Assembly (NCBI RefSeq): GCF_018388445.1
Contig: NZ_CP074405.1
Span: 1-64,000, forward strand
Source: Cellulomonas wangleii
Lineage (GTDB): Bacteria; Actinomycetota; Actinomycetes; Actinomycetales; Cellulomonadaceae
Length of the DNA: 64,000 nucleotides
Direction of reading: 5' to 3'
Part shown: one piece after another, positions 1,823 to 22,603 of the stretch
Layout of the letters: each line of letters begins with the position of its first letter
Position numbering within the stretch: position 1 is the stretch's first letter
The notes under the pieces: generated by a model
What the model saw: the letters and a program-made list of their open reading frames with translations, nothing else
What the model was told of the DNA's origin: nothing
Databases searched by the model: none
Made by a program: the position numbers and the translations under genes

Positions 1823-2002
1823 CGCCCTCGGACGGCACGCAGGGGCGCCCGCCGGCGGTACCGCCCGTGCGTCCTCGCGGCCGTGCCCCACGGTCAACTC
1901 CTGAGGGCATGCTCCGGGTGGGTCCTGACGGCCCTGCTCAGGTGGACCCCGCCGGCCTGCCCCGGTGGCTCCTGGCACCCGCCCACGGGGTCCTGGTGGT
2001 CG

Positions 2003-2070
2003 CCCTGACGAGTCCCTCCGACCAGCCCTGACGAGCCCTTCCGACCAGCCCTGACGAGCCCCTGCCGGCC
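2003..2070. repeat. 23-bp tandem repeat, about 2.9 copies
   Basis: A unit beginning CCCTGACGAG is repeated at 2003, 2026 and 2049. The first two copies differ at two positions; the third diverges after about 14 bases. It lies in the dnaA-dnaN spacer, before the DnaA-box cluster. Function is unknown; it could be an origin-associated iteron or simple slippage. Confidence 0.7.
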
Positions 2071-2334
2071 TGCCCGTGCTGGTCGTCAGCGACCCACGGG
2101 CCAGCCCGCAGCTCTTCGGGCGAACGGCACGGCATCCCGCGAGGCTCCCGCCACGACGCGCCGGACTCCCCCGCGGCCACCGGCGCGGTGACGCCGGTCA
2201 CCCCGCCGGGCGGCCCGGGCGCGCACCCGACGCCGAGCACCGGAGCCCGACCCGGGACGACGCCTCCGCACGACACGTCCCCACCTGGGGACGAGATGGT
2301 CGGACTGTCCGTTTCTCTCCACCGGTGATCCGGG

Positions 2335-2797
2335 TTGTCCACAGGTTTGCCCACCGCCTGGGGACATTTGTGAAGCAGTTCACCCGGACGCCCACGAGCC
2401 TGTGGACAACTGACCTGCTGCGCGAGTCCCTAGCCCTCTGAACTGCACAAACGTTCCGACGAGCCGGCCCGGCGACCACGGCGCGCATGTCATGCGGACC
2501 CGTCTGGACCGCGCGTCCATGAGAGGACTCTCACCACCAAACCCGGACAAGTGTCTTGACGGGGCTGTGGACATGCGGGTGAAACACGCATGGGACGAAT
2601 GTTCACACCTGTGTACACACCTGTGGACGACGGTGGACGACACCCACAAGACCTGTGGACCCGGGGGTGCCCGTCGGTGGACACGGATCGACGACTTCGG
2701 GGGCGTCCACCCCCGTCCACCGCGGCAGCGTCCTGCGTCCCCACTCGCCGCACAAGACGATATGCCTTCTGACCTGCATGAAGACGCGTCGTCCACA
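2335..2797. other. oriC: chromosomal replication origin oriC
   Basis: The 1,230-bp gap between dnaA (ends 1822) and dnaN (starts 3053) has no convincing gene and carries the DnaA-box cluster. Boxes on both strands: TTGTCCACA 2335-2343 (exact), TGTGGACAA 2401-2409 (exact, inverted), TGTGGACAT 2566-2574, TGTGGACGA 2622-2630, TGTGGACCC 2654-2662 and TCGTCCACA 2789-2797 (one or two mismatches), plus further GGTGGAC half-boxes. The stretch is lower in GC than the rest of the window, with CACACCTGTGTACACACC at 2604-2621 a candidate unwinding segment. Position between dnaA and dnaN is the standard actinobacterial location. The exact unwinding element is not resolved. Confidence 0.9.
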
Positions 2798-3052
2798 TGA
2801 TCAACACCCCCGATGACGACGACGACCCATTCACCAGGAAGAGATCCACACACCGACGTGGGGTGCGCTGGTGCGACGGCCGGGGCCCGGCCGGGACGCC
2901 AGGAAGAACCGACCACCTCGCACGGTGTACCCGGCGTCGGACGTGTCGCGTAGTCTTCGGCTCAGCCCCACCAGCGCCCGCCGTCGTGCCCGCCCGTGCC
3001 TCTCGGCACGCCGCGCACGAGCCGGACGGGCCGGACGACGAGAAGGTGATGC

Positions 3053-4183
3053 ATGAGGTTCCGCGTCGATCGTGACGTGCTCGCCGATGCCGTCACGTGG
3101 ACCGCACGCAGCCTGCCGACCCGCCCGCCGGTCCCCGTCCTGGCGGGCGTGCGCATCGAGGCGGACACCACCGGCACGATCCAGCTCTCGAGCTTCGACT
3201 ACGAGGTCTCGGCCCGTGCGCAGCTCCCGGCGGACGTGAGCGAGCCGGGCACCGTCCTCGTCTCCGGGCGTCTGCTCGCCGAGATCTCGCGCTCCCTGCC
3301 GGCCAAGCCGGTGGACGTCGTCCTCGACGGCACGAAGGTGCAGGTCACGTGCGGTGCGAGCCGGTTCACGCTGCTGACGATGCCCGTCGAGGACTACCCC
3401 AACCTGCCGGTGATGCCGGAGGTCACGGGCACCGTCGACGGTGACGAGCTGACGCACGCCGTCGCGCAGGTGTCCGTGGCGGCCAGCCGGGACGACACCC
3501 TGCCGCTGCTCACCGGTGTGCGCGTGGAGATCGAGGGCGAGAAGGTCACGCTGCTGGCGACCGACCGCTACCGCCTCGCGCTGCGCGAGATGACGTGGAA
3601 GCCCACCAACCCGGGCGTCGAGGCCGTCGCCCTGGTGCGGGCGCGCACGCTGTCGGACGCCGCCAAGTCGCTCGGCGGCTCGGGCTCGGTGTCGGTGGCG
3701 CTGTCCACCGGCGGCGGTGTCGACCTCATCGGGTTCGAGGCCGGCGGTCGGCAGACCACCAGCCTGCTGGTCGACGGCGACTACCCGCCCGTGCGCCGGC
3801 TGTTCCCGGACGAGACCCCCATCCACGCCATCGTCAACACGCAGGCGCTCGCCGAGGCCGCCAAGCGCGTCGCCCTCGTGGCCGAGCGCAACACGCCCAT
3901 CCGGCTGACGTTCAGCGAGGGGCAGGTCGTGCTCGACGCCGGGCAGGGTGACGACGCGCAGGCGTCGGAGGCCCTCGAGGCCGTCCTCGTCGGCGACGAC
4001 ATCTCGGTGGCGTTCAACCCACAGTTCCTGGCCGACGGCCTGGGCGCCCTGGACACGACGTTCGTCCGGATGTCGTTCACGCACCCGAACAAGCCCGTCG
4101 AGTTCACGGGCCAGGAGTCGCTGGAGAGCGACGACCGCAAGGACTACCGCTACCTGCTGGTGCCGATCCGCTTCTCGAGCTGA
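3053..4183 (+). CDS. dnaN: DNA polymerase III sliding clamp, beta subunit
   Basis: Ring-shaped processivity clamp that tethers the replicative polymerase. The 376-residue product starts MRFRVDRDVLADAV, typical of actinobacterial DnaN, and contains three consecutive clamp folds: the middle domain begins near residue 128 and the last near 255. It ends YRYLLVPIRFSS, matching the conserved clamp C-terminus around the peptide-binding groove. ATG at 3053 follows AGAAGG at 3041-3046. The gene follows oriC and precedes gnd by 77 bp. Confidence 0.97.
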   Translation: MRFRVDRDVLADAVTWTARSLPTRPPVPVLAGVRIEADTTGTIQLSSFDYEVSARAQLPADVSEPGTVLVSGRLLAEISRSLPAKPVDVVLDGTKVQVTCGASRFTLLTMPVEDYPNLPVMPEVTGTVDGDELTHAVAQVSVAASRDDTLPLLTGVRVEIEGEKVTLLATDRYRLALREMTWKPTNPGVEAVALVRARTLSDAAKSLGGSGSVSVALSTGGGVDLIGFEAGGRQTTSLLVDGDYPPVRRLFPDETPIHAIVNTQALAEAAKRVALVAERNTPIRLTFSEGQVVLDAGQGDDAQASEALEAVLVGDDISVAFNPQFLADGLGALDTTFVRMSFTHPNKPVEFTGQESLESDDRKDYRYLLVPIRFSS

Positions 4184-4260
4184 CCCCCGCGCGGCGGGGC
4201 CGTGTGTACGGCACAGTGACCGGGTCGGGCCCGGACGGGGCCCGCGGAGAGGGGCGAGGC

Positions 4261-5190
4261 ATGCACATCGGTCTGGTCGGGCTGGGCAAGATGGGCGCGA
4301 ACATGCGCCAGCGCATCCGGGAGGCGGGGCTCGAGGTCACGGGCTTCGACCGCAACCCCGAGGTGAGCGACGTGCCCACGCTGGAGGCCATGGTCGAGGC
4401 GCTGCCCGCCGGTGAGCGGGTCGTGTGGGTCATGGTGCCCTCGGGGCCGATCACCGACGCTGTGGTCCAGGACCTGGCGGGACTCCTGACCGCCGGTGAC
4501 CTGGTGATCGACGGGGGCAACTCGTACTACCAGGACGACGAGCCCCACGCGGCGCTGCTGGCCGAGCGGGGTATCGGCTTCATCGACGCCGGGGTGTCGG
4601 GCGGCATCTGGGGCCTGGAGAACGGCTACGGCCTCATGGTCGGTGGCGCGTCGCGGGACGTCGAGCGGGCCATGCCGGTGTTCGACGCGCTGCGCCCCCC
4701 GGGGGAGCGCGCCGACGGGTTCGTGCACGCGGGCCCCGTGGGTGCCGGGCACTACGCGAAGATGGTCCACAACGGCATCGAGTACGGGCTGATGCAGGCG
4801 TACGCCGAGGGCTACGAGCTCCTCGCGGCGAAGGACCTCGTCACGGACGTGCCCGCGACGATGCGGGCCTGGTCGACCGGCACGGTCGTGCGGTCCTGGC
4901 TGCTGGACCTGCTGGTGCAGGCGCTCGAGGAGGACCCGAAGTTCGGGGCGATCGACGACTGGGTCGAGGACTCGGGCGAGGGCCGGTGGACCGTCGACGA
5001 GGCGATCGACCTGGCCGTCCCGGCCCCGGTCATCTCGGCCGCGCTGTTCGCGCGCTTCTCCTCCCGGCAGGGCGAGTCGCCGGCCATGAAGGCCGTCGCG
5101 GCGCTGCGGCAGCAGTTCGGCGGCCACGCGGTGCGAGCCGCCGGCGCCGCGACCGTGACCCCGTCGGCACCGCCCACGTCGGAGGCCTGA
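4261..5190 (+). CDS. gnd: 6-phosphogluconate dehydrogenase, short (YqeC-type)
   Basis: Oxidises and decarboxylates 6-phosphogluconate to ribulose 5-phosphate with NAD(P)+. The 309-residue product belongs to the short class (about 300 residues, against about 470 for the long form). It has an N-terminal Rossmann motif GLVGLGKMG at residues 3-11, the GGNSYYQDD substrate loop near residue 85, and the catalytic [10 protein letters not shown] segment near residue 168. ATG at 4261 follows a GAGAGGGG ribosome site. Position between dnaN and recF is a recurrent actinobacterial arrangement, also seen in Streptomyces. Cofactor preference cannot be read with certainty. Confidence 0.93.
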
Positions 5191-5195
5191 GCCGC

Positions 5196-6392
5196 GTGTA
5201 CGTCGCGCACCTGTCCCTCACCGACTTCCGGTCGTACCCGCAGGTCGAGCTCCCGCTCGACCCGGGCATCACCGCGCTCGTCGGCCCGAACGGGCAGGGC
5301 AAGACGAACCTCGTCGAGGCCATCGGGTACGTCGCGACGCTCGGCAGCCACCGGGTGCCGTCCGACGCCGCGCTGGTCCGGGCCGGGACGAACCGTGCGG
5401 TCGTGCGCGCCAAGGTCGTCCGGGAGGAGCGTGCGACGCTCGTCGAGGTCGAGATCACGCCCGGCAAGGCGAACCGGGCCCGGGTCAACGGCGGCTCCCC
5501 CGGCCGGGCCCGCGACGTGCTCGGCATCCTGCGGACCGTCCTGTTCGCCCCCGAGGACCTCGCCCTGGTCAAGGGTGACCCGGACGGGCGCCGCCGGTTC
5601 CTCGACGACCTGCTGGTGCAGCTCACCCCGCGCATCGCCGGTGTCCTGAGCGACTACGAGCGCGTCCTGCGGCAGCGGTCGGCCCTGCTGAAGTCCGCGG
5701 CGGCGGCGACGCGGGCACGGTCGGGGGCGGACCTGCGCACGCTCGACGTCTGGGACGCCAAGCTCGCGCAGACCGGCGCCCAGGTGGTCGTCGCGCGCCA
5801 GGCACTGGTGGCAGCCCTGCGACCGCGCGCCGCGGAGTCGTACCACCAGGTCAGCGCCGGTCAGGGCGAGCTGGGGCTGACGTACCGCTCCTCCCTCGAC
5901 GCGGCGCTGGGGCAGGCGGACGACGAGCCCGCCGTCGCACCGGGCGCTGGCGTCGAGGTGGTCGAGGCACGGCTGCTCGAGGCGATGGGTCGGCTGCGGA
6001 GCAAGGAGATCGAGCGGGGTGTGTGCCTCGTCGGTCCCCACCGCGACGACCTGCACCTCACCCTCGGCGACCTGCCGGCCAAGGGGTACGCGAGCCACGG
6101 CGAGTCGTGGTCGGTCGCCCTCGCGCTGCGGCTCGCGTCGTACGCGCTGCTGACGCACGGTGTCGACGACGCGGGCGCGTGGGCGGCCGACTGGGGGCCG
6201 GACGGTGAGCCGGTGCTGATCCTCGACGACGTGTTCGCCGAGCTCGACACGCGCCGGCGGGAGCGCCTGGCCGAGCTGGTGGCGCCCGCGCGGCAGGTGC
6301 TGGTGACGGCGGCGGTGCCGCAGGACGTCCCCGAGCCGCTGGCCGGGGCGCGGGTGGACGTCATGGCCGGTGAGGTGGCGCGTGCCCGCTGA
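5196..6392 (+). CDS. recF: DNA replication/repair protein RecF
   Basis: SMC-like ATPase that helps load RecA at gapped DNA. The 398-residue product has Walker [10 protein letters not shown] near residue 30, and a C-terminal Walker [12 protein letters not shown] near residue 340. The GTG at 5196 gives the standard start [14 protein letters not shown]; it lies 10 nt after GGAGG at 5181-5185, which is inside the 3' end of gnd, so the two genes are probably co-transcribed. The open frame extends further upstream inside gnd but lacks a better start. It overlaps dciA at its 3' end. Confidence 0.95.
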
Positions 6393-7017
6393 CCGCCGCC
6401 CCGGCGCCGGGCGCGCACCCGGTGCAGCCGCGGCACCCGGGGCACCCGCGCGGCCCGGCGGGACGTCGGACGACGACACCCTCCTGCCTGCGCCGATGGG
6501 CGTCCCCGACGGCGTCCCGGTCTCCGAGCTGGTGAATCTGACGCCCCCGGAGCAGGTGGTGCGCGCGGCGCTCGCCCGGGCGAAGCAGGCCGCTCGGGCC
6601 CGCGGCCTGCGGCCGGGGGTGGTCCGCAGCAGGCCGGTGAGCAGCGGCTCCGCCCCCGGGGCGCGCGACCCGCAGCCCTTGTCGGTCTCGGCGGGCCTGC
6701 TCGCGCGGGACCTGGGCTGGGAGCCCGGCCTGGTGGTGGGCGACCTGGTGCACCGGTGGGCGCAGATCGTCGGCCCGCAGATCGCCGACCACTGCGAGTA
6801 CGTGTCCTTCACGTCCGGGCTGCTGACGGTGCGCGCGTCGTCGACGGCGTGGGCGGCGAACCTGCGGCTGCTGGCACCGGCCATGCTCGCGCGGTTCGAC
6901 GAGGCCCTCGGCGAGGGCGTCGTGGTGCAGGTGGACGTCCTGGGACCGGTGGGGCACGGCTTCGGGCGCGGTCCGCGCCGGGTCGCGGGCCGAGGTCCGC
7001 GGGACACGTACGGCTGA
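6382..7017 (+). CDS. dciA: DciA-type helicase loader/operator (DUF721)
   Basis: Member of the DUF721/DciA family, which replaces DnaC in many bacteria by helping the DnaB helicase load. The 211-residue protein has a proline/glycine-rich N-terminus and a conserved core that starts near residue 100 ([22 protein letters not shown]) and includes [14 protein letters not shown]. The GTG at 6382 overlaps the recF stop by 11 nt and has GGTGAGG 7 nt upstream; an upstream GTG at 6370 is the alternative. The recF-dciA-gyrB order matches Mycobacterium tuberculosis Rv0003-Rv0005. Confidence 0.88.
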
Positions 7018-7079
7018 CGTCCTCCCCCCGGGTGGCGCCGCCGCGCGCCCGACCTGCCCAGGATCGGGCGTCCACCGGG

Positions 7080-9305
<2,226 letters not shown>

Positions 9306-9369
9306 CGCGGGCGCCGGCGACCCCGGCGCGCGCGACCGAGCTGGTACCGACGACTGGAGTGACCCGCAC

Positions 9370-11964
9370 GTGACCGAGACCCCGGGCGAGATCGAGCACG
9401 GCCGCATCGACCAGGTGGACCTGCAGCTCGAGATGCAGCGTTCCTACCTGGACTACGCGATGGCCGTCATCGTCGGCCGCGCGCTGCCGGACGTCCGCGA
9501 CGGCCTCAAGCCGGTGCACCGACGCGTGATCTACGCGATGTACGACGGCGGCTACCGGCCGGACCGGCAGTTCTCCAAGTGCAGCCGCGTCGTCGGCGAC
9601 GTCATGGGCAAGTACCACCCGCACGGCGACACGGCGATCTACGACGCCCTCGTGCGCCTGGTGCAGGACTGGTCGCTGCGCTACCCGCTGGTGTCCGGCC
9701 AAGGCAACTTCGGCTCCCCCGGTGACGACCCGGCGGCCGCGCCCCGGTACACCGAGTGCAAGATGGCGCCGCTGGCCATGGAGATGGTCCGCGACATCGA
9801 CGAGGACGCCGTCGACTTCCAGGACAACTACGACGGCCACACGCAGGAGCCGGCTGTCCTGCCGTCGCGCTTCCCGAACCTGCTGGTCAACGGCTCGGCC
9901 GGCATCGCCGTCGGTATGGCGACAAACATCCCGCCGCACAACCTGCGCGAGGTCGCCGCGGGTGTGCAGTGGCACCTGGACCACCCGGAGGCCTCGAAGG
10001 AGGAGCTCCTCGACGCGCTCATGGCGCGGATCAAGGGCCCCGACTTCCCGACCGCCGCGACGATCCTGGGTCGCCGGGGCATCGAGGACGCGTACCGCAC
10101 GGGTCGTGGCTCGATCACGATGCGCGCGGTCGTGCAGGTCGAGGAGATCCAGGGCCGCCAGTGCCTGGTCGTCACCGAGCTCCCCTACCAGGTGAACCCG
10201 GACACCCTGGCGAAGAAGATCGCCGACCTCGTCAAGGAGAACCGCGTCCAGGGCATCGCGGACATCCGCGACGAGACCTCGGGCCGCGCCGGCCAGCGCC
10301 TCGTCATCGTGCTCAAGCGCGACGCCGTCGCCAAGGTCGTGCTGAACAACCTGTACAAGCACACGCAGCTGCAGGACACGTTCGGCGCGAACATGCTCGC
10401 GCTGGTCGACGGGGTCCCGCGCACGCTCAGCCTCGACGCGTTCGTCCGGCACTGGACGACGCACCAGATCGACGTCATCCAGCGCCGCACGCGGTACCGG
10501 CTGGCGCAGGCCGAGTCGCGCATCCACATCTACCGCGGCTACCTCAAGGCGCTCGACGCCCTCGACGAGGTCATCGCGCTCATCCGGCGCTCCCCCGACG
10601 CGGAGGAGGCCCGCACGGGCCTCATGGAGCTGCTCGAGATCGACGAGGAGCAGGCCCAGGCCATCCTCAACCTGCAGCTGCGCCGCCTGGCCGCCCTGCA
10701 GCGCCAGGAGATCCTCGAGGAGTACGCCAAGCTCGAGGCGATCATCACCGAGCTCAACGAGATCCTGGGCTCGCCGGAGCGGCAGCGGCAGATCGTCAGC
10801 GAGGAGCTCGACACGATCGTCGAGAAGTTCGGCGACGAGCGACGCACGCACATCCTGCCGTTCGACGGTGACGTGTCGATCGAGGACCTGATCGCCGAGG
10901 AGGACGTGGTCGTCACGATCACGCGCGGCGGCTACGCCAAGCGCACCCGCGTGGACGCGTACCGCGCGCAGCGTCGCGGCGGCAAGGGCGTGCGCGGCGC
11001 GCAGCTGCGCGAGGACGACATCGTCGACCACTTCTTCGTCACCACGACGCACCGCTGGCTGCTGTTCTTCACGAACCTCGGCCGGGTGTACCGCGCCAAG
11101 GCGTACGAGCTGCCCGAGGCCGGGCGTGACGCCAAGGGTCAGCACGTCGCCAACCTGCTGGCCTTCCAGCCGGGCGAGAAGATCGCCCAGGTGCTGGACC
11201 TCAAGGACTACGAGCAGGCCGAGCACCTCGTCCTGGCCACCAAGCGCGGCCTGGTGAAGAAGACGCGACTGACGGAGTACGACTCCAACCGCAGCGGCGG
11301 CGTCATCGCGATCAACCTGCGCGAGGACGAGGAGGGTCGCACCGACGAGCTCGTGGCCGCTCGCCTGGTCGACTCCAGCCAGGACGTCATCCTCGTCTCG
11401 CGGCTCGGGCAGTCGGTGCGCTTCACCGCGTCCGACGAGGCCCTGCGTCCCATGGGCCGCGCCACCAGCGGCGTCACGGGCATGAAGTTCCGGGACGACG
11501 ACGACCTGCTCGCGATGGACGTCGTGCGTGAGGACGCCTACCTGTTCACGGTCACCGAGGGCGGCATCGCCAAGCGCACGGCCCTGACGGTCGAGAACTA
11601 CCGTCAGCAGGGCCGCGGGGGTCTGGGCATCAAGGTGGCCAACCTGCCCGAGGCGAACGGGGAGCTCGTCGGCGCCCTCGTGACGGACGAGGACGACGAG
11701 GTGCTGGTCATCATGGAGCGCGGCAAGATCGTGCGGTCCTCCACCTCGGAGGTCAACGCGACCGGTCGCACGACCCAGGGCGTCATCTTCGCCAAGCCGG
11801 ACGCCAACGACCGGATCATCGCCGTCGCCCGGAACAGCGAACGACACCTCGACGACGATGGCGGTACCGTGGGCGAGAACGTGCTCAACCACGACGCACC
11901 CGACGTACCGGACCCGGACGGATCGGTGCCTGACGGCGGCGACCGACCCGCGGAGGACGCATGA
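9370..11964 (+). CDS. gyrA: DNA gyrase subunit A
   Basis: DNA-cleaving subunit of gyrase. The 864-residue product has the breakage-reunion domain with catalytic Tyr at about residue 127 (APRYTECK), followed by six beta-pinwheel blades containing the GyrA box QRRGGKG near residue 536. In the quinolone-determining region the sequence is [12 protein letters not shown]: the residue matching E. coli Ser83 is Thr (residue 88) and the Asp87 equivalent is Asp 92. The start is GTG at 9370. The stop overlaps the next gene by 4 nt (ATGA), so the two are translationally coupled. Confidence 0.97.
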
Positions 11965-12953
11965 GTGACACGCCCCCCTCGATCCCCCCGCGCAAGCGCC
12001 CGACCCCCCCGATGAACGGCGGGGGCAGCGCGTCCGGCGAGGGCGGGGCCGTGCAGTCGGCCGAGCACGAGGCCGGCGGCAGCTCGTGGGCGTCGTTCGG
12101 CGGCCCGACCGCCTCCGCTCCCCCGACCTACACCGTCGACGTGCGCGGCTCCGGGTCGTCGTCGGGCCGGACGACGTCCCCCGCGGGCCCGCGTACCGCC
12201 GAGCGTCCGCCGGCCGAGTCGTCCGCCGAGCGGCCGACGGCCGAGCGAGCAGCGGCCGACCGGACGGAGCCGCGCCCTGCGCCCGCGACCACCGCGCCCG
12301 CGACCACCGCGCCCGCGGACGGGAGCGATCCCGACGACGCCGCGTCGCCGTTGGTGACGGCCGTCGACGCGACGACCGTGTGGCTGAAGAAGGCGGCCGG
12401 AGCCACCGGTTCGGGTCTCTCGAGGGCGTACTCTCAGCTGACCCGCCCCCGCACCGAGGACGACCACATGACCACGACGCCGACGACCACCGGTGCCGCG
12501 ACCACCGAGCGCCCCGCGCCGCGGTCGACGGCTCCCGTCACGGGGGCGACCGCCCGTCCGGCCACCGGCCGGATCCCGAGCGTGGGCGGCGGCCCGCGCC
12601 GCGTCCGCCTCGCGGTGTCCCGCGTGGACCCCTGGTCGGTCATGAAGCTGTCGTTCCTTCTGTCCGTGGCGGTCGGCATCATGATCGTCGTGGCGGCCGT
12701 CGTCGTGTGGTTCACGCTGGACGGGCTGCAGGTCTTCGCACGCGTGGACGATCTCGTCCGGCAGGTCGTCGGGCAGGACAGCCCGCTGGACGTCATGGCC
12801 TACGTGTCGTTCGAGAAGACCGTCTCCGCGGCCACGCTGGTCGCCGTGATCGACGTCTTCCTGCTGACGGCCCTGGCGACGATCGGCGCGTTCCTCTACA
12901 ACATCGTGGCGGCGCTGGTCGGTGGCGTGCACGTGACGATGACCGACGAGTGA
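11961..12953 (+). CDS. DUF3566 membrane protein
   Basis: Conserved actinobacterial protein of unknown function, nearly always found right after gyrA. The 330-residue product has a long low-complexity cytoplasmic N-terminus rich in Pro, Ala, Thr and Arg (about residues 1-210) and a C-terminal DUF3566 domain with two hydrophobic segments, near residues 228-252 and 289-320. The ATG overlaps the gyrA stop (ATGA). The tandem [11 protein letters not shown] stretch near residue 112 suggests an expandable linker. The family is often associated with cell-envelope or division functions, but none can be assigned from sequence. Confidence 0.88.
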
Positions 12954-12994
12954 CCCGGCCGGGACGCCCCGGCAGCACGACGCAGCCCGCCGGT

Positions 12995-13024
12995 TTGGGC
13001 GCGGCGGCCCGCCTGGGGTAGTCT
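12995..13024 (+). promoter_or_regulatory. probable tRNA-Ile promoter
   Basis: TTGGGC (12995-13000) and TAGTCT (13019-13024) are spaced by 18 nt and lie about 60 bp before the tRNA-Ile gene. The -10 is strong, the -35 partial. Confidence 0.45.
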
Positions 13025-13084
13025 CGACCGTCGCGCCCACCGGTGCGGATCCCTCACGGGATTCGACCGGCGGTCGTGTCTCAC

Positions 13085-13158
13085 GGGCCTATAGCTCAGA
13101 CGGTTAGAGCGCTTCCCTGATAAGGAAGAGGTCACAGGTTCAAGTCCTGTTAGGCCCA
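13085..13158 (+). tRNA. tRNA-Ile (GAT)
   Basis: A 74-nt cloverleaf: acceptor arm GGGCCTA (13085-13091) pairs with TAGGCCC (13151-13157), discriminator A at 13158. The anticodon loop CTGATAA gives anticodon GAT, and the T-arm carries GTTCAAGTC. CCA is not encoded. It lies downstream of the gyrA/DUF3566 unit, the usual place in actinobacteria. Confidence 0.97.
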
Positions 13159-13218
13159 CGCTGCAGGTTCGGTCGTCGTCCCACGGACTGCCGGCACCCA
13201 CCCGAGACGGGGGAACCG

Positions 13219-13338
13219 ATGAAGAAGCTCCTGCTCCTGGCCGCTGTCGCGGCCGTCGGCTACGTCGCCTGGCAGAAGTACGCGCAGGACCGCGACGAGC
13301 GCGACCTGTGGGCCGAGGTCACCGACACCTTCGAGTGA
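13219..13338 (+). CDS. DLW-39 family small protein
   Basis: A 39-residue protein, too short for routine ORF calling. It starts MKKLLLLAAVAAVGYVAWQK, a single hydrophobic segment (about residues 3-18), followed by a charged tail with the motif RDLWAEVTD that names the DLW-39 family. Members are exactly about 39 residues long and sit between the tRNA-Ile and tRNA-Ala genes after gyrA in actinobacteria, as here. ATG at 13219 follows GAGACGGGGG. Function is unknown; it is probably a membrane-anchored peptide. Confidence 0.85.
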   Translation: MKKLLLLAAVAAVGYVAWQKYAQDRDERDLWAEVTDTFE

Positions 13339-13354
13339 GCGGCGGCCCGCACCC

Positions 13355-13427
13355 GGGGCCATGGCGCAATTGGTAGCGCACCTGCTTTGCAAGCAGGGGG
13401 TTAGGGGTTCGAGTCCCCTTGGCTCCA
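13355..13427 (+). tRNA. tRNA-Ala (TGC)
   Basis: A 73-nt cloverleaf: acceptor GGGGCCA (13355-13361) pairs with TGGCTCC (13420-13426) with one G-U pair; discriminator A at 13427. The anticodon loop TTTGCAA gives anticodon TGC, and the T-arm carries GTTCGAGTC. CCA is not encoded. Confidence 0.97.
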
Positions 13428-13434
13428 CACCCGC

Positions 13435-13467
13435 GAACGGCGCAGGACCTCGTGTCCTGCGCCGTTC
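13435..13467 (+). terminator. strong hairpin after tRNA-Ala
   Basis: A perfect 14-bp stem (GAACGGCGCAGGAC with GTCCTGCGCCGTTC) closes a 5-nt loop, 8 nt after the tRNA. There is no T-tract, which is common for actinobacterial terminators. It separates the rightward origin block from the leftward gene that ends at 13541. Confidence 0.8.
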
Positions 13468-13540
13468 GGCGTTCCCGTGGCCGTCGTCGTCGTCCGAGGA
13501 CGGGAGGGCCGCAGGACAGGAGCGTCGGACGCCGGGACCG

Positions 13541-14008
13541 TCACTCGACGGGGAACGTCGCCCAGATGTTCTTGGTCATGTCCGTCTCGTACCAGCCGAC
13601 CTCGAGCGAGAGCCGGCGGGCCAGGTGCAGGCCCAGTCCCCCGGCGCCGGTGATGCGGGCACCGGCGTAGACCGGCGCGGACTCCGGGTCGTGGTCGGCG
13701 ACGTCGAGCATCCACTGGTCGTCGGTGCGCGACAGGGCGACGGTCGTCGGCGGCAGGGCGTGGGTCAGCGCGTTCGCGGCGAGCTCGGTGGCGATGAGCA
13801 CGAGCTTGTCGGGCGTCGCCTCCAGGTCCTGCCGGGCCGCGCCGGTGCCGGCACCGATCTCGTCCGCCAACTGGTGCCGCAGGGTGCGCAGCTGCGCGGT
13901 GGACGCCAGCTCCCAGTGCCGGACGGGTGCGAACCCCTCGGGGGGACGGCTGACGGGCAGGCCCGCGTCCACGTCGATGAGCTCGAGCTGTTCCTGGCTG
14001 CCGGTCAT
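13541..14008 (-). CDS. anti-sigma-factor-like ATP-binding protein (RsbW/SpoIIAB-type)
   Basis: A 155-residue single-domain histidine-kinase-like ATPase (HATPase_c). The N-box is LIATELAANALTHA (about residues 78-91) and the G2-like motif GAGGLGLHLARRL lies near residue 125. Proteins of this size without a sensor or phosphotransfer domain usually are serine kinases that bind sigma factors or phosphorylate anti-anti-sigma proteins. No sigma factor or STAS partner is adjacent, so the target is unknown. ATG at 14008 follows GGGGAGG. Confidence 0.75.
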   Translation of the reverse strand: MTGSQEQLELIDVDAGLPVSRPPEGFAPVRHWELASTAQLRTLRHQLADEIGAGTGAARQDLEATPDKLVLIATELAANALTHALPPTTVALSRTDDQWMLDVADHDPESAPVYAGARITGAGGLGLHLARRLSLEVGWYETDMTKNIWATFPVE

Positions 14009-14214
14009 GCCGCCTCCCCCGCGTCGTCAGGCGATGAGCCTCACAGGCCGCGGGCGATCGCGCACGTCGAGAGGCCGCGTGGCGACGAGGCCGGCGCCCC
14101 GAAATCGAGAGGCGCCGGGTCGCACGGACGGGCATCCTTCCGCTGGCCCCGTGCACGACCCGTCCGGGCGCCCCACCCGGCGGACGCCGGACGACGCCCC
14201 GGAAGGGGGATGTC

Positions 14215-14376
14215 ATGACCAGCACCTTCCCGGTCACGCTGCGCGGCGCCGCCGCCCCCACCCTCATGTGGGCGCACGAGCACGACGTGGAGCCGGCGGC
14301 GCTGCAGCAGCTGCGCACGATCGCCGCACTCCCCTGGGTTCACGGGGTGCGCGTCATGCCCGACGTCCACCTGGGC
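14215..14376 (+). pseudogene. rtcB: rtcB 5' part, interrupted
   Basis: The first 54 codons of an RtcB-family RNA ligase, which joins 2',3'-cyclic-phosphate and 5'-OH RNA ends with GTP and Mn2+. The reading frame is intact (MTSTFPVTLRG through MPDVHLG) and has a ribosome site GGAAGGGGG, but then runs directly into inserted DNA at 14377. The missing continuation (KGATVGSVIAM...) resumes at 16286. The frame stays open into the recombinase fragment, so a 225-residue RtcB-recombinase chimera could be translated up to 14892. The gene is inactive unless the insertion is removed. Confidence 0.9.
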
Positions 14377-14377
14377 A

Positions 14378-14388
14378 TTATCTGGACA
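14378..14388 (+). repeat. left inverted repeat of rtcB element
   Basis: TTATCTGGACA, one base after the last rtcB codon before the insertion. It is the exact inverse complement of 16270-16280 and is read in frame from RtcB into the recombinase fragment. Confidence 0.85.
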
Positions 14389-15203
14389 GATGCCGGTAGG
14401 GACGGCAGTCCTCGACTGCGGATTCCCGCAGGCAAGACGCGAAAAGAGCGCAGCATCCCGCTGCACCCCGACGCGGCCGACGCGATTCGAGAGCTCCGGG
14501 CGATCCGTGCAGGCGACCACGACCGGGGCATCATCGATCGCGTCACCGAGCGACGCACGCGATACCTGTTCATGAGCAAGGGCCGGCACATCTCCAGGTC
14601 GCACCTCTTCGACAAGCCGCTACAGCTGGTGTGTGAGTACGCCGGCCTGCTGACGGTCGAGGGCGGGAAGCTGGTCACGGCCCATCGGTTCCGCCACACC
14701 CTCGGGACGGAGCTGGTCGAGGTCGGAGCCCGATTCCAGACTGTGATGGCAGTACTCGGCCACGACTCAGCGGACATGACCTTGACGTACGCGCAGGTCA
14801 GCGACCCGACGGTGAAGGCGGACTACGAGAAGGCCGTAGAGGCGGGCTCGATCGCGGGCCCCGCCGCGGCAGCGATCCGCGACAAGCGCTGAGCCAGCGC
14901 GAGGTCTCGTGGCTCCAGTCGAACTTCTTCAAGACTGAGCTCGAGCTCGGCGCATGCATCCGCCTGCCGGAGGAGGGCCCCTGTGAGTGCGAGATCTTCT
15001 TCACGTGCGGCAAGTTCTTCACGACTGAGGAGCACGCTCCACGTCTCCGCTCACGTTGGCACAAGGAGGAGCGCCTGATCGATGACGCGCGCGAGCGGGG
15101 TTGGGCGCGCGAGGTGGAACGGCACGAGGCGGTGCAGAGGCGGATTGAAGCGCTCCTCAGCGACCTCGGCCAGACGCTCGACGGACCCCAGGATGAGTGC
15201 TGA
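14389..15203 (+). pseudogene. tyrosine recombinase/integrase, truncated and frameshifted
   Basis: Catalytic half of a tyrosine recombinase. Visible are the beta-hairpin lysine (GKTRKERSIPL), box II HRFRH, LGHDS and the tyrosine nucleophile in LTYAQ. The N-terminal DNA-binding domain and the first catalytic Arg are missing: the sequence starts right behind the left end of the element. The frame closes at 14892, but the homologous tail continues in another frame from about 14889 to a stop at 15201 (SWLQSNFFKTELELG, then a cysteine cluster CIRLPEEGPCECEIFFTC, then REVERHEAVQRRIEALL). Such Cys-rich tails occur in transposon-type integrases. Both defects argue that it is inactive. Confidence 0.85.
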
Positions 15204-15280
15204 GCCCCCGAGAAACATCGGCACCCGCCCCGGGCGAGGGCGATCGCCACACGCAGCCTGCGATCCGGCTACCGTGGAGC

Positions 15281-16162
15281 GTGCACGAGACCCAGCCAGA
15301 CTTCCCGATCTGGGGCGACATCGTCTGGCTGACTCCCGAACAGGGCGGTCGTGAGTCCGGCCCTCCGCCTACACCCTGGGACAGGTACTACCACGCCACC
15401 GCGTTCGTCCCGCCACAGACGAGTTCCAGCGGCCTGGCGTCGATCAGTCTGCACGTCTCGGTACGGGACGCGTGGACCTCGCACGCGAAGGCGAGGTGGC
15501 TGGTTCCCCCTGGTCCCGTCGTTGACGAAGGCTCGGTGATCATGGTCACCGAGGGCCCGAGAACGGTCGCCGTCTTCGCTGTCACCCACGTCGAGCGCGG
15601 ACAAGGTCATGCCGATCTCCCCAGGCCACCGCTCTCGGGCCAGGCCATCGCCGAGATCGAGGCCCGAGCGGGAGCCGCAACTCGCGGACCGTGGCGGTCG
15701 TTCGTGGAAGGTCGGGACCATCTTGCCGGGGACAGTTTCGTGATGACCGGCACGGAGAAGGATCGCGGACCGGACATCTACCTGACATGGGATCCCCTGG
15801 TGTCGGAGGAACAGCGCCTCGCCGACCAGGACTTCATCGCCCACGCGCGGCAGGACGTCACCGCCCTCGCCATGGACCTCCGAGAACTGCGCGTGTGGCA
15901 CGAGCTCGAGGAAGTCGACGAGGAAATCGAAGAGCCCGCCGTGGCGGGCGACCTCCCCGACGGATACCAGCAGCCATCTGTTGCCTACGTCGTTCAGACC
16001 GACCCGTCGCAGCCCGAGTCATACCAGCTTGGCGGGTTCACCAGCGAACGAGAAGCTCTCAAAGCCCTGTACGAGGCGCGACGCGACCGCCCATCGGAGA
16101 GCTGGGTCATCAACATGATCACGGTGTGGGATCGGTTCACGGACTACAGATCAGAGTCCTGA
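15281..16162 (+). CDS. hypothetical protein, cargo of the rtcB element
   Basis: A 293-residue acidic, soluble protein not assigned to any function. The N-terminal part (IWGDIVWLTPEQGG, residues 9-22; about 10-110 overall) looks like one compact domain; the middle is charged and ends in an acidic helix (HELEEVDEEIEEP), and a C-terminal part contains QLGGFTSEREALKAL. No signal peptide or membrane segment. It is the only intact gene in the element. The GTG at 15281 is chosen because conservation-like sequence begins there; an upstream GTG at 15197 overlaps the recombinase end. Codon use has more A/T third positions than the core genes, fitting transfer. Could be accessory to transposition or unrelated cargo. 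Confidence 0.6.
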   Translation: MHETQPDFPIWGDIVWLTPEQGGRESGPPPTPWDRYYHATAFVPPQTSSSGLASISLHVSVRDAWTSHAKARWLVPPGPVVDEGSVIMVTEGPRTVAVFAVTHVERGQGHADLPRPPLSGQAIAEIEARAGAATRGPWRSFVEGRDHLAGDSFVMTGTEKDRGPDIYLTWDPLVSEEQRLADQDFIAHARQDVTALAMDLRELRVWHELEEVDEEIEEPAVAGDLPDGYQQPSVAYVVQTDPSQPESYQLGGFTSEREALKALYEARRDRPSESWVINMITVWDRFTDYRSES

Positions 16163-16269
16163 CCGCTTCTTCGAGCTCGTCTCGGCAGACACATCCGATG
16201 GCATCGAGACAGGGCGTTCGGTTGGAGATGCAGTAGGTCGCGAAGACGCGTTCCTCAGCCCTTGCGGCT

Positions 16270-16280
16270 TGTCCAGATAA
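16270..16280 (-). repeat. right inverted repeat of rtcB element
   Basis: TGTCCAGATAA, exact inverse complement of 14378-14388. It is followed by CTACT and then the resumed rtcB codons at 16286. Confidence 0.85.
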
Positions 16281-16285
16281 CTACT

Positions 16286-17350
16286 AAGGGCGCGACCGTC
16301 GGCTCCGTCATCGCGATGCGCGACGCGGTGTCCCCCAACGCCGTCGGTGTCGACATCGGCTGCGGCATGATCGGCGTGCGGACGTCCCTGACCGCCGAGG
16401 ACCTCCCGGACGACCTGCACGCGTTGCGCAGCGCCGTGGAGTCTCGCATCCCCGTCGGGTTCCGCTCGCACGACGAGGCGGTCGACCTGCGCAGGCTGCG
16501 GCCGATCGGCGCGCACGCGCGGACGGCCGAGGCGCTGCGGGGCGCGGACGCCTTCTGGGCCCGGTTCGGTGCTCTCACCCCGCGGGTGCGGGACCTGGAG
16601 GGGCGGGCGCGGCGCCAGCTCGGCACGCTGGGCGGCGGCAACCACTTCCTCGAGGTCTGCCTCGACGACGACGGGACGGTGTGGCTGCAGCTGCACTCCG
16701 GGTCGCGCAACATCGGCAAGTCCCTCGCCGAGGTGCACGTGGCGGTCGCCAAGTCGCTGCCGCACAACGCGGGCCTGGTGGACCGGGACCTGGCCGTCCT
16801 GCTGGCGGGGACGCCGGAGATGGACGCCTACCTCGAGGACCTGTCGTGGGCGCAGGAGTACGCGGCCCGGTCCCGGGCCGTGATGATGACGCTCTTCGTG
16901 GACGCGGTGCGTGCCGCCTTCGGCGACCGTGAGGTGGCGTTCGAGGAGGTGGCGAACGTGCACCACAACTACGTCACGACCGAGCGCATCGACGGTGCCG
17001 AGCTCGTGGTGACCCGCAAGGGCGCCATCCGGGCCGGTGCGGGCGACCTCGGGCTCATCCCCGGGTCGATGGGCACGGGGTCGTACATCGTGCGCGGACT
17101 GGGCAACCCCGCGTCGTACTGGTCGGCGTCGCACGGCGCCGGCCGGCGGATGTCCCGTGCCGCGGCCCGGCGGACGTTCACCGTGGAGGACCTCGCGGCG
17201 CAGACCGCCGGCGTCGAGTGCCGCAAGGACGCCGGGGTCGTCGACGAGATCCCCGGCGCCTACAAGGACCTGGACGAGGTGATCGCGGCGCAGGCCGACC
17301 TCGTGGAGGTGGTCGCACGACTCCGCACCATCGTGTGCGTGAAGGGCTGA
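16286..17350 (+). pseudogene. rtcB: rtcB 3' part, interrupted
   Basis: The remaining 354 codons of RtcB, starting KGATVGSVIAM. All recognisable active-site segments are intact: VDIGCGM (Mn-binding Cys), GGGNHF, HSGSRNIG, the NVHHNY metal ligands, and the SHGAGRRMSR segment with the guanylylated-His motif. Together with the 54 codons upstream it would make a normal 408-residue enzyme. No decay is visible in this part, so the insertion is probably recent. As it stands there is no proper start codon or ribosome site at 16286. Confidence 0.9.
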
Positions 17351-17406
17351 CCTGCGACGACGCCTCCTCGGCGGCCCCGGAGACCCCGGGGTCGCCGAGG
17401 CGGTGC

Positions 17407-17434
17407 TGGACATCCGCCCGATCTCGTGTAGAGT
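17407..17434 (+). promoter_or_regulatory. promoter upstream of cspA leader
   Basis: TGGACA (17407-17412) and TAGAGT (17429-17434) with 16-nt spacing form a good vegetative promoter. Transcription would start near 17441, giving a leader of about 480 nt before cspA. Confidence 0.55.
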
Positions 17435-17440
17435 CGTCGA

Positions 17441-17921
17441 AGCGTTCTGCCGCGCGAACACATCCGCGGCGCACTTCGGTACCTCAGCATCGAAGCGAGG
17501 ACCGCACGCATCCGGCAGCAGAGGCTGTCGGCGAGGATCTCCGGCCACCGGGCGCGGAGCGGAAGCAGAGAACATCACACACACCACCTTCGAGCACCGG
17601 CCGACCGTTGCTGCGGTCACCGTGAGCTCAGGATCGGACGCCGTCTGGCGCTCCGTCGACGCCGACCTGTGGGTCGGGACCGTCGACGGCGAGTACGCCG
17701 GGCTCATCGTCCGTACCCCCGACGGGTTCCACACCCACGACCGCTGGACGCGGCCCGTGGGTGTCGCCCCGACGTTCGACCGTGCGACGTGCCTCCTGGC
17801 ACCGGCCCGCACGAGCTCACCCCGAGCGCGTCGTACGTCGACCCTTCACCGTCTGCGCCCCTCGGGGCGCGGCAACCGGCGCCGCACCAGCGCGCCGGCA
17901 GACCGAACGAGAGAAGACATC
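17441..17921 (+). other. long cspA leader with in-frame upstream ORF
   Basis: The 481 bases between the promoter and cspA contain no stop in the cspA frame (open from 17403). A GTG at 17623 begins a plausible small domain ([20 protein letters not shown], then [16 protein letters not shown]) of about 60 residues; after that the translation becomes Arg/Ser-rich and unlike protein. Options are a separate small protein whose stop was lost by a frameshift, an N-terminally extended cold-shock protein, or a regulatory leader. Long structured leaders are known for cold-shock genes. No RNA family could be assigned. Confidence 0.4.
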
Positions 17922-18128
17922 ATGGCCACCGGCACCGTCAAGTGGTTCAACGCGGAGAAGGGCTTCGGCTTCATCGCTCCGTCCGACGGCTCCGCCGACG
18001 TTTTCGCGCACTTCAGCGCGATCGTCTCGACGGGCGGCTTCCGCACGCTCGAGGAGAACCAGCAGGTCGAGTTCGAGGTCACCCAGGGCCCCAAGGGCCT
18101 GCAGGCGTCGGACATCCGACCGCTCTGA
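17922..18128 (+). CDS. cspA: cold-shock protein
   Basis: A 68-residue single cold-shock domain that binds single-stranded nucleic acid and acts as an RNA chaperone. RNP1 KGFGFI (residues 15-20) and RNP2 VFAHF (27-31) are intact, and the length is typical for actinobacterial CspA. ATG at 17922 follows GAGAGAAG at 17909-17916. A hairpin terminator follows 13 nt after the stop. The frame is open upstream (see the leader entry). Confidence 0.95.
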
Positions 18129-18140
18129 CCCGAGCTCCCC

Positions 18141-18177
18141 ACGAAGGCCGCACCGCGACTCGCTGTGCGGCCTTCGT
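18141..18177 (+). terminator. cspA terminator
   Basis: A perfect 13-bp stem (ACGAAGGCCGCAC with GTGCGGCCTTCGT) and an 11-nt loop, just behind the cspA stop. Confidence 0.8.
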
Positions 18178-18282
18178 CGTCCCCGGGCGCCCGTCGCGCC
18201 TCCCCCGGCCGCTCATCCGCCGTCCCGGGCGCCACGAGGGCGCCCGAGGGCCTTCCCGGCGCCCTGGGCGGGGGTACGGCCG

Positions 18283-18849
18283 TCAGAAGCCGGTGCGTCG
18301 GGCGCGTGCCACGAGGTCCGTCAGCACCTCGGGGCTGTAGACCGGGACCGGGCCGTCGGTCACCGGGCCCTCCTCCAGGGTCGACCACTGCCAGTGCGGC
18401 ATGACCTGGGTCGCGGCGGCGTCGGCGTCGTCCAGGCGCAGGTCGAGCAGCACGGCGTAGCGGTACCCGAAGCGCTGCTGCACCGACCGGGCGGCCGCGA
18501 GGTTCGCCGTCCCCGCCGTGGCCGCCGCGGCGTCGGCCGTCAGCTCGACCAGCAGCAGGTTGTGCTCCGGCCCCAGCCGGCCACGCCGGTGGACGATGAG
18601 GTGCGGCGGACGGAGCGTGACACCGTCGAACCGGACCGAGTCCTCCAGCACCATGCCGGACCGGTCGTAGTCGGCGTCGAGGTCCCACCTGCCCTCGATG
18701 GTGCCGCGCAGGGCCCAGCCGAGGTGGAACGAGATGGTCCGCTCGGAGGGCCGGCTGGTGCCGGCCGAGGGCGCGAGCAGCGTCCACTCGTCCACCAGCG
18801 TGGTCGTGAGCGCGATGCGCACGCGGGACTGCAGGTCGGCGAGGAGCAT
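18283..18849 (-). CDS. hypothetical protein
   Basis: A 188-residue soluble protein that I do not recognise. It has no signal peptide or membrane segment. Its middle (WDLDADYDRSGMVLEDSVRF) and the HNLLLVELTADAA segment suggest a mixed alpha/beta fold; the latter resembles proteins that hold a (P)D-x-Exk-like core, but no catalytic set is convincing. A -10 hexamer TAGCGT lies exactly 6 nt before the ATG at 18849, so the transcript is probably leaderless. Confidence 0.65.
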   Translation of the reverse strand: MLLADLQSRVRIALTTTLVDEWTLLAPSAGTSRPSERTISFHLGWALRGTIEGRWDLDADYDRSGMVLEDSVRFDGVTLRPPHLIVHRRGRLGPEHNLLLVELTADAAAATAGTANLAAARSVQQRFGYRYAVLLDLRLDDADAAATQVMPHWQWSTLEEGPVTDGPVPVYSPEVLTDLVARARRTGF

Positions 18850-18974
18850 GGCCGGACGCTACTCCCGTGATGTCGGCCGCGACAGGGACCTGTGTCACGG
18901 CAAGGTAAACACACCGCCTGCTCCGCGTCTGCGCCGTGTCGGTCCCCGGTCAACAGGGTCGGCCTCCGGCGGGC

Positions 18975-19709
18975 TCAGCCGGAGAGCCCGAGCTGCGACC
19001 GCACCGGGCCCAGGCCCTCGATGCGGATCTCGGGTCGCAGGTGGTCCGGCCGGGCGTCCCAGTCGGCGCGGTCCAGCACGTACAGCTGGCTGTCGACCGG
19101 GCCACCCTCACGGGCCTGGTGCAGGATCCCGTTGGGCCGGTACCCGATCTTGCGGCTGACGCCCGACGAGCCCGGGTTGTCGACGAACGCGGAGCTCGTC
19201 GCGTACCGCGCGTCCAGACCCTCGAACAGCAGGTGCAGGACCATCAGGCGCATGCGGGTGCCGACACCGCCGTGCTGGTGCCGCAGACCGAGCCACGACC
19301 CCGTCTCGGCGCTACGGGCCACCAGGTAGTCCTTCGCGTACAGGCCCTGGGTGCCCAGCGGCTCGCCGTCCCGCACGACCGCCAGCTCGATCGCCCAGTC
19401 GGAGGGCGCGGTGCGCTCGCGCAGCCCCCACTGGTACGTCATGACGCTGCGGGCCACCTGCACCGGTGTCCCGCGCGTCCACGGGACCAGGAACGGCATG
19501 TAGTCCGGCTGGTGCACGCCCTGGGCGGCCAGCCGGGCCAGGTCGAGCAGCATGCGGTCGTCCGGCGCCCGCAGCTCCAGGTCGCCGCAGACGACCCGCA
19601 GGCCGGTCAGGGGCCAGATGTCGACGTCGGACAGGACGGCGGCGTCCGTGCTCGAGGGGGTCGTCGCGGGCGGCGTCTGCGGGGATGCGGGCGGGGCCGT
19701 GTCGGTCAC
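18975..19709 (-). CDS. GNAT-family N-acetyltransferase
   Basis: A 244-residue acetyltransferase of the GNAT superfamily, RimJ/RimL-like. After a Ser/Thr/Pro-rich N-terminus (to about residue 30) come ELAVVRDGEPLGTQGLYAKD (strands 2-4), the acetyl-CoA loop region GLRHQHGGVGTRMRLMVLHL near residue 148, and ATSSAFVDNPGSSGVSRKIGY, where the Asn-x-x-S-x-x-V pattern is typical. The substrate is unknown. GTG at 19709 is the first start in frame before the domain; the open frame runs on upstream only as a shadow of the cellulase gene. Confidence 0.8.
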   Translation of the reverse strand: MTDTAPPASPQTPPATTPSSTDAAVLSDVDIWPLTGLRVVCGDLELRAPDDRMLLDLARLAAQGVHQPDYMPFLVPWTRGTPVQVARSVMTYQWGLRERTAPSDWAIELAVVRDGEPLGTQGLYAKDYLVARSAETGSWLGLRHQHGGVGTRMRLMVLHLLFEGLDARYATSSAFVDNPGSSGVSRKIGYRPNGILHQAREGGPVDSQLYVLDRADWDARPDHLRPEIRIEGLGPVRSQLGLSG

Positions 19710-19806
19710 CCCCGCAGGCTCCCGGTCCGCGCGCCCGCGGTCAACTCCCGGACCTGCACCCGTCCCGTCGAGCGGCCGCTGCCACCCGGTCGCCCTCCGA
19801 CGGGCG

Positions 19807-19838
19807 ACGAGGGCGTCGCGCACGCGCGACGCCCTCGT
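19807..19838. terminator. inverted repeat between GNAT and cellulase genes
   Basis: A perfect 14-bp stem (ACGAGGGCGTCGCG with CGCGACGCCCTCGT) with a 4-nt loop. Second hairpin in the 254-bp gap; it may back up the cellulase terminator. Otherwise the gap holds no gene. Confidence 0.6.
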
Positions 19839-19914
19839 GCGGCGTCCGGCTGCCCCCGCGGCGGACGCCCGGCCCGGACGGGCGGATACGGGCCGCCCGC
19901 CCGGGGGTTGGATC

Positions 19915-19957
19915 GGTCCCGGTCCGGCGACGTCGGGGGTCGAGCCGGACCGGGACC
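19915..19957 (-). terminator. cellulase terminator
   Basis: A perfect 14-bp stem (GGTCCCGGTCCGGC with GCCGGACCGGGACC) and a 15-nt loop, starting 6 bp beyond the cellulase stop. Confidence 0.75.
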
Positions 19958-19963
19958 CGTCTG

Positions 19964-22603
<2,640 letters not shown>

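Follow-up and report, generated by a model that had tools for sequence, protein, structure and literature searches.

A probable deletion derivative of a Tn554-related transposon interrupts the RNA-repair gene rtcB of Cellulomonas wangleii

In the DNA analysed here, positions 1 to 64,000 of Cellulomonas wangleii contig NZ_CP074405.1 (the window, 64,000 nucleotides in full), the RNA-repair gene rtcB lies at 14215-17350 and is split after codon 54 (...MPDVHLG / KGATVGSV...) by an element of 1,903 bp (14378-16280; Table 1). The first and last 11 bases of this element are exact inverted copies of each other (TTATCTGGACA), and its junctions, CACC-TGGGCA-element on the left and element-CTACTA-AGGG on the right, carry no target duplication. 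A preliminary description of this sequence had already reported the inverted ends, the missing duplication, about six extra bases at the right junction and rtcB halves that join into an intact frame. All of these were borne out: TGGGCA stays on the left, the extra bases are CTACTA, and scripted joining of the two flanks yields a single frame without an inner stop. For the full set of RtcB active-site motifs that it also named, the check was a Pfam and NCBIfam match. rtcB is disrupted in this genome, and the interrupted gene is its sole rtcB match. In relatives, rtcB is continuous at the insertion point in all ten rtcB1-type loci listed (L014-L023); in an eleventh relative (G094) the stretch around that point is gone through deletion.

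Table 1 Features of the interrupted rtcB locus of C. wangleii (window positions)
Feature	Position	Strand	Evidence or remark
rtcB 5' part, codons 1-54 (...MPDVHLG)	14215..14376	+	sequence, profile match, comparison with relatives
rtcB 3' part from codon 55 (KGATVGSV...)	16286..17350	+	sequence, profile match, genome search
Native target hexamer TGGGCA, adjoining tnpA-proximal end	14372..14377	+	TGGGCA or TCGGCA in 25/27 pattern matches in relatives' loci
tnpA-proximal end, TTATCTGGACA	14378..14388	+	exact 11-mer
Distal end, inverted TTATCTGGACA	16270..16280	-	exact 11-mer; CTTGCG at equal spacing in C. marina distal end
Foreign hexamer CTACTA, adjoining distal end	16281..16286	+	carry-over from a previous site inferred
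tnpB remnant, about last 267 codons, one frameshift near 14888	14401..15203	+	start is where homology to P0011 becomes clear
Hybrid open reading frame, 225 aa, rtcB codons 1-54 in frame into tnpB remnant	14215..14892	+	open reading frame list, profile match
Cargo open reading frame, 293 aa (321 aa if read from an upstream start)	15281..16162	+	follows tnpB remnant; sequence and structure model

Within the insert, both NCBIfam and Pfam detect an integrase catalytic domain that is cut short on its N side (the Pfam profile is matched from position 55 of 172). This domain belongs to a remnant of the recombinase gene tnpB, which resembles P0011, a full-length TnpB of 693 aa from a Cellulomonadaceae metagenome-assembled genome (MAG), with 93% identity in one block of 166 aa and 99% in another of 104 aa that is read in a different frame. 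The element lacks tnpA and the rest of tnpB, including the N-terminal part with the first catalytic-arginine region, and derives by deletion from a Tn554-related transposon.

The same site is occupied in a second species, Cellulomonas marina CGMCC 4.6945 (G048, record NZ_FOKA01000024.1), where open, overlapping tnpA (397 aa) and tnpB (687 aa) genes, each with a Pfam Phage_integrase match, stand beside the 3' part of the paralog rtcB2. The 5' part of rtcB2 is found near the edge of another contig, and both pieces end in the exact 11-mer. This insertion falls at the same base position as in C. wangleii in the opposite orientation, with junctions CACC-TAGATG-element and element-TCGGCA-AGGG, in a paralog that is about 45-49% identical in protein. 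Because the paralogs, the orientations and the foreign hexamers all differ, the two insertions are independent. A DNA search of 221 family genomes with the insert gave a long match only in C. marina, besides three short weak ones. The preliminary description had proposed a tyrosine-recombinase transposon with coupling-like bases, which agrees with the tnpB remnant and the six-base core described below; the recombinase remnant itself and the occupied site in a second species go beyond it.

The hexamers follow the same arrangement in both species. In C. marina the rtcB hexamer adjoins the tnpA-proximal end and the foreign hexamer the distal end; in C. wangleii the left end can be assigned as proximal, with the native hexamer, and the right end as distal, with the foreign one, because what is left of tnpB is oriented away from the left end and because CTTGCG stands, at equal spacing, in both the right end and the distal end of C. 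marina. The site pattern was matched 27 times in the relatives' loci L014-L042, with TCGGCA in 17 matches, TGGGCA in 8, other hexamers in 2 and CTACTA in none. Taken together, the two insertions set the replaced core at six bases: the native hexamer departs from the foreign one at position 1 in C. wangleii and at position 6 in C. marina.

In the C. wangleii genome (one contig, 4.08 Mb) the exact 11-mer occurs only at the two element ends, with one further place at one mismatch, which answers the earlier suggestion that other copies be sought, and a DNA search found no second copy of the insert in this genome. Across the 221 family genomes there are seven exact 11-mers (two in C. wangleii, two in C. 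marina and three single ones elsewhere), compared with three for a reversed control, and the three single ones, in other genera, have no tnpA or tnpB nearby within 3-kb loci. When up to two mismatches are allowed in the C. marina genome, the 11-mer is not commoner than its reversed control (34 versus 49), and only the two exact matches stand out. Among the matches listed for the junction pattern in 394 class genomes, C. wangleii is the sole exact one, the others carrying one or two mismatches.

We consider it very probable that the C. wangleii element is a deletion derivative of a Tn554-related transposon with tandem tnpA and tnpB that integrated at a six-base core in rtcB. The target would be CACC-NNNNNN-AGGG, the codons of the HLGKG motif; TnpA and TnpB would bind the 11-bp ends of a circular copy together with the rtcB site, with strand exchanges spaced by six bases. 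The target hexamer would then stay at the tnpA-proximal end, and the hexamer from the previous site would end up at the distal end. Direct observation covers the ends, both hexamers, what is left of tnpB and the use of one site in two species; a circle, copying rather than cutting, and any supply of recombinases in trans are inferred. The elements thus seem to aim at rtcB, leaving a six-base footprint.

Several points weigh against this interpretation. In C. marina the element is spread across two contigs, with its middle unseen, and the known rtcB cases number only two. The N-terminal part of the interrupted gene faces the distal end in C. marina and in the five methyltransferase insertions described below, and C. 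wangleii, with the opposite orientation, is the exception. The foreign hexamers, CTACTA and CATCTA (TAGATG on the other strand), do not match the rtcB type, which makes rtcB an improbable previous site in both cases. Five of the 15 other tabulated two-ended elements have an identical hexamer at both ends and are uninformative on the hexamer rule, and the model of rtcB targeting is deduced from sequence only.

Related elements were collected by a scan of genome contigs, which gave 51 loci, 24 of them with a TnpB identity of at least 34% (L062-L085). In 22 of these 24 tnpB-bearing loci, ends are found at the element edge, with the exact 11-mer at one end at least in 10 and a variant with one or two changes in 12; L068 has no end with at most one mismatch, and the sole match of L083 lies elsewhere in the locus. 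Five plasmid loci gave the exact 11-mer in two cases, a variant in two and neither in one (L170). We tabulated 16 two-ended elements, C. wangleii included, with C. marina as the 17th. Four of the collected loci (L073, L074, L076 and L077) hold 3,374-bp elements in Gemmobacter, Rhodobacter and Tabrizicola. Among these, L074 has at its distal end the hexamer that its sister copies L073 and L077 have at their proximal ends, in line with the carry-over rule.

Other members of this group interrupt other genes. Where the distal side was tested (L063, L067, L071, L075 and L079), the interrupted gene is in all five pieces a C5 cytosine methyltransferase; proximally, L075 matches the same methyltransferase family and L067 gives no match. 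These insertions cut directly after the RxR stretch of the protein (motif VIII), and L066 was grouped with them by eye. On one side each, L081 adjoins a DUF6915 stretch and L085 a ParB-like stretch.

An element with a comparable deletion is present at L084, in a Rhodospirillales MAG. This 1,548-bp element (8564-10111) has both ends and a single open reading frame (ORF) of up to 438 aa, in which a tnpA-like N-terminal part runs into a tnpB C-terminal part near the codon where the C. wangleii remnant begins, and such deletions therefore recur. A CTGGAC recombination-prone stretch inside tnpB was considered as the deletion point; the lengths do not fit, and it remains an idea. In C. wangleii, the in-frame fusion of rtcB codons 1-54 with the tnpB remnant is perhaps due to chance. 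The structure model of the cargo ORF has a mean predicted local distance difference test (pLDDT) score of 65; the model of residues 8-106 resembles domain 3 of EF-Tu, and Foldseek returned no match at E <= 0.001.

Both rtcB parts read as under purifying selection, which makes the insertion look recent, as first supposed: pairwise dN/dS between C. wangleii rtcB and seven close relatives is 0.08-0.14, compared with 0.05-0.15 among the relatives, and the proportion of unique codon changes that alter the amino acid (7/22 in C. wangleii versus 7/48 in the seven relatives) shows an excess in C. wangleii that is not significant (Fisher p 0.11). It is quite possible, if somewhat less probable than the opposite, that a complete tnpA/tnpB element entered rtcB, then lost tnpA and most of tnpB in place, and never moved as a mini-element. 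The tnpB remnant, still 93-99% identical to P0011 and with one frameshift, would make such a decay young, and the rtcB deletion of the near relative G094 also starts close to the insertion point. Against this, the deletion leaves only ~23 bases proximally, just sparing the 11-bp end, both rtcB parts are intact, and L084 is another two-ended mini-element with its deletion at nearly the same tnpB codon.

A second rival is that rtcB is a secondary target on which a lineage with its main site in another gene has occasionally landed, twice among the cases seen. A tree built from the C-terminal parts of TnpB, with 29 rows, places both rtcB rows within one clade of 13 (99/99), with C. wangleii beside P0011 and P0012; the two are not sisters, and the methyltransferase group falls elsewhere. 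Both members of this clade that can be placed occupy the same rtcB position, and since the other 11 rows are unplaced in any genome, rtcB targeting by the whole clade is not established. These 11 rows and the foreign hexamers of non-rtcB type would suit occasional landings; that the same six bases were hit twice independently, in opposite orientations and in paralogs so diverged, argues against them, and we regard this alternative as unlikely, without being negligible. With TnpB as query at E <= 1e-30, matches came from 6 of 396 genomes of the order (G000, plus five that are 28-32% identical) and from 4 of 221 genomes of the family (G000, C. marina and a further two that are 30% identical). 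At E <= 1e-60, a search of 398 genomes from another family within the order, run without a positive control, gave no match.

rtcB is often lost and is dispensable in the genus: an rtcB match is absent in 29 of 81 genomes, and in addition there are the G094 deletion, a frame change in the rtcB of G099 and an insert in G025. G094 lacks the middle of rtcB (L046, the region matching window positions 14365-17053) between flanks that are 92-95% identical; its deletion begins ~12 bp from the C. wangleii insertion point, the 11-mer is absent from its genome, and the deletion may or may not follow an earlier insertion. In G025, contig 65 (L044/L045, about 1,920-21,820) carries a different insert of ~19.9 kb inside rtcB2, at the GSGNHF codons, bounded by the 9-bp direct repeat AACCACTTC. 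Its ORFs resemble a putative type I restriction set, as judged by eye, and include two large adjoining ORFs (734 and 496 aa) for which Pfam gave nothing. Since this insert differs from the C. wangleii element, two kinds of element use rtcB within one genus.

The preliminary description had also conceived of a regulated switch, in which conditional excision restores rtcB. In favour of a switch, the frame is open in each part of rtcB, purifying selection acts on the two, and the ends are intact; against it, no cognate recombinase was found in the C. wangleii genome: outside the insert there is no TnpB match at E <= 1e-30, and a TnpA search gave, besides the insert, only two partial matches (E 1.4e-14 and 3.7e-5), taken as putative Xer-type recombinases. 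The element should accordingly be stuck, and it looks immobile in this genome. Strict excision would also have to remove the foreign hexamer, the gene itself is dispensable in the genus, and the best-studied related elements circularise without leaving an empty site, according to the part of PMC10214605 consulted. The idea of a switch was thus not upheld, and we consider it highly improbable. Short inverted ends and small size might also suggest a DDE-type insertion sequence (or a miniature of one), or else the remains of a phage or plasmid whose ends are inverted by chance. This is less credible still: to the extent that tnpA/tnpB elements carry the same ends it is refuted, and the missing target duplication, the tyrosine-recombinase remnant inside and the lack of a TnpB relative among viral contigs speak against it as well. 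No exact circle junction was found in the viral contigs either.

Tn554-related actinobacterial transposons that pair one long recombinase with one short were defined in 2012, with Famint36/41 couples listed without TnpC, in a paper whose Section 10, the part consulted, names neither terminal sequences nor target genes (Van Houdt et al. 2012, PMC3414803). The C. marina relative likewise has an ordinary and an abnormally long tyrosine recombinase in tandem, whereas the C. wangleii copy lacks tnpA and most of tnpB; TnpC was not recognised among the C. marina ORFs after tnpB, as judged from the ORF list without a profile search. The Tn554-type traits present are the lack of target duplication, the six-base footprint, the inverted ends, 11 bp and exact at both ends in both species, and target-site specificity, with one rtcB position used by 2 of 2 clade members that could be placed. 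Six-base coupling sequences are also a feature of Tn916-type conjugative transposons, which differ from the rtcB-targeted elements in using a single Int with Xis and in their low target specificity.

Tn554, Tn558, Tn559 and Tn6188 of Firmicutes share with our elements a TnpA/TnpB pair, the lack of target duplication and insertion into a conserved gene at a motif that is itself conserved, and differ in their target, radC, in having tnpC and in their resistance cargo (PMC3788773, in the part consulted). Since it is inserted in rtcB and not in radC, the C. wangleii element is not Tn554 proper. TnpB-like proteins of Mammaliicoccus and Enterococcus plasmids, which we read as belonging to Tn554 elements, match at about 27% over residues 276-679. 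The hexamer rule, target proximal and carried hexamer distal, was described for strand-biased elements, and Tn554-related elements show the same; SE-6283 and SE-6945 have inverted ends, a six-base spacer, the target hexamer at the intA-proximal end and the carried one opposite (PMC10214605, same part). These elements are reported from Gammaproteobacteria and differ in their ends of 13-19 bp and their four core genes intA, tfp, intB and srap (PMC10214605). In C. marina no gene separates tnpA from tnpB, which overlap, and no profile search aimed at srap was made.

Somewhat short of an even chance, in our estimate, Tn554-related elements with TTATCTGGACA-type ends may form one large family spanning Actinobacteria and Alphaproteobacteria. 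Each lineage would be aimed at conserved catalytic-motif codons of a different dispensable gene (HLGKG of rtcB, RxR of cytosine methyltransferases, radC in Firmicutes), with strand-biased copying and mini-elements mobilisable in trans, and the C. wangleii element would be an rtcB-aimed mini-element.

No paper pairing Tn554 with rtcB was found in the literature searched, a search on rtcB and integration or attachment sites gave nothing on insertion into rtcB in the titles and abstract starts of the matches listed, and a term search of the main text of the GInt paper (PMC5385486) gave no mention of rtcB. The recombinase machinery is thus known, and what is new is rtcB as a target, together with the mini-element. 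For actinobacterial transposons that the 2012 description, in the part consulted, knew from their recombinases, the finding supplies defined ends, a six-base core and target genes, and connects them with the strand-biased elements known from Gammaproteobacteria. It becomes possible to test by what means two paired tyrosine recombinases select a conserved coding motif, and whether the pair copies or cuts, in a system where an RNA-repair gene serves as the landing site.
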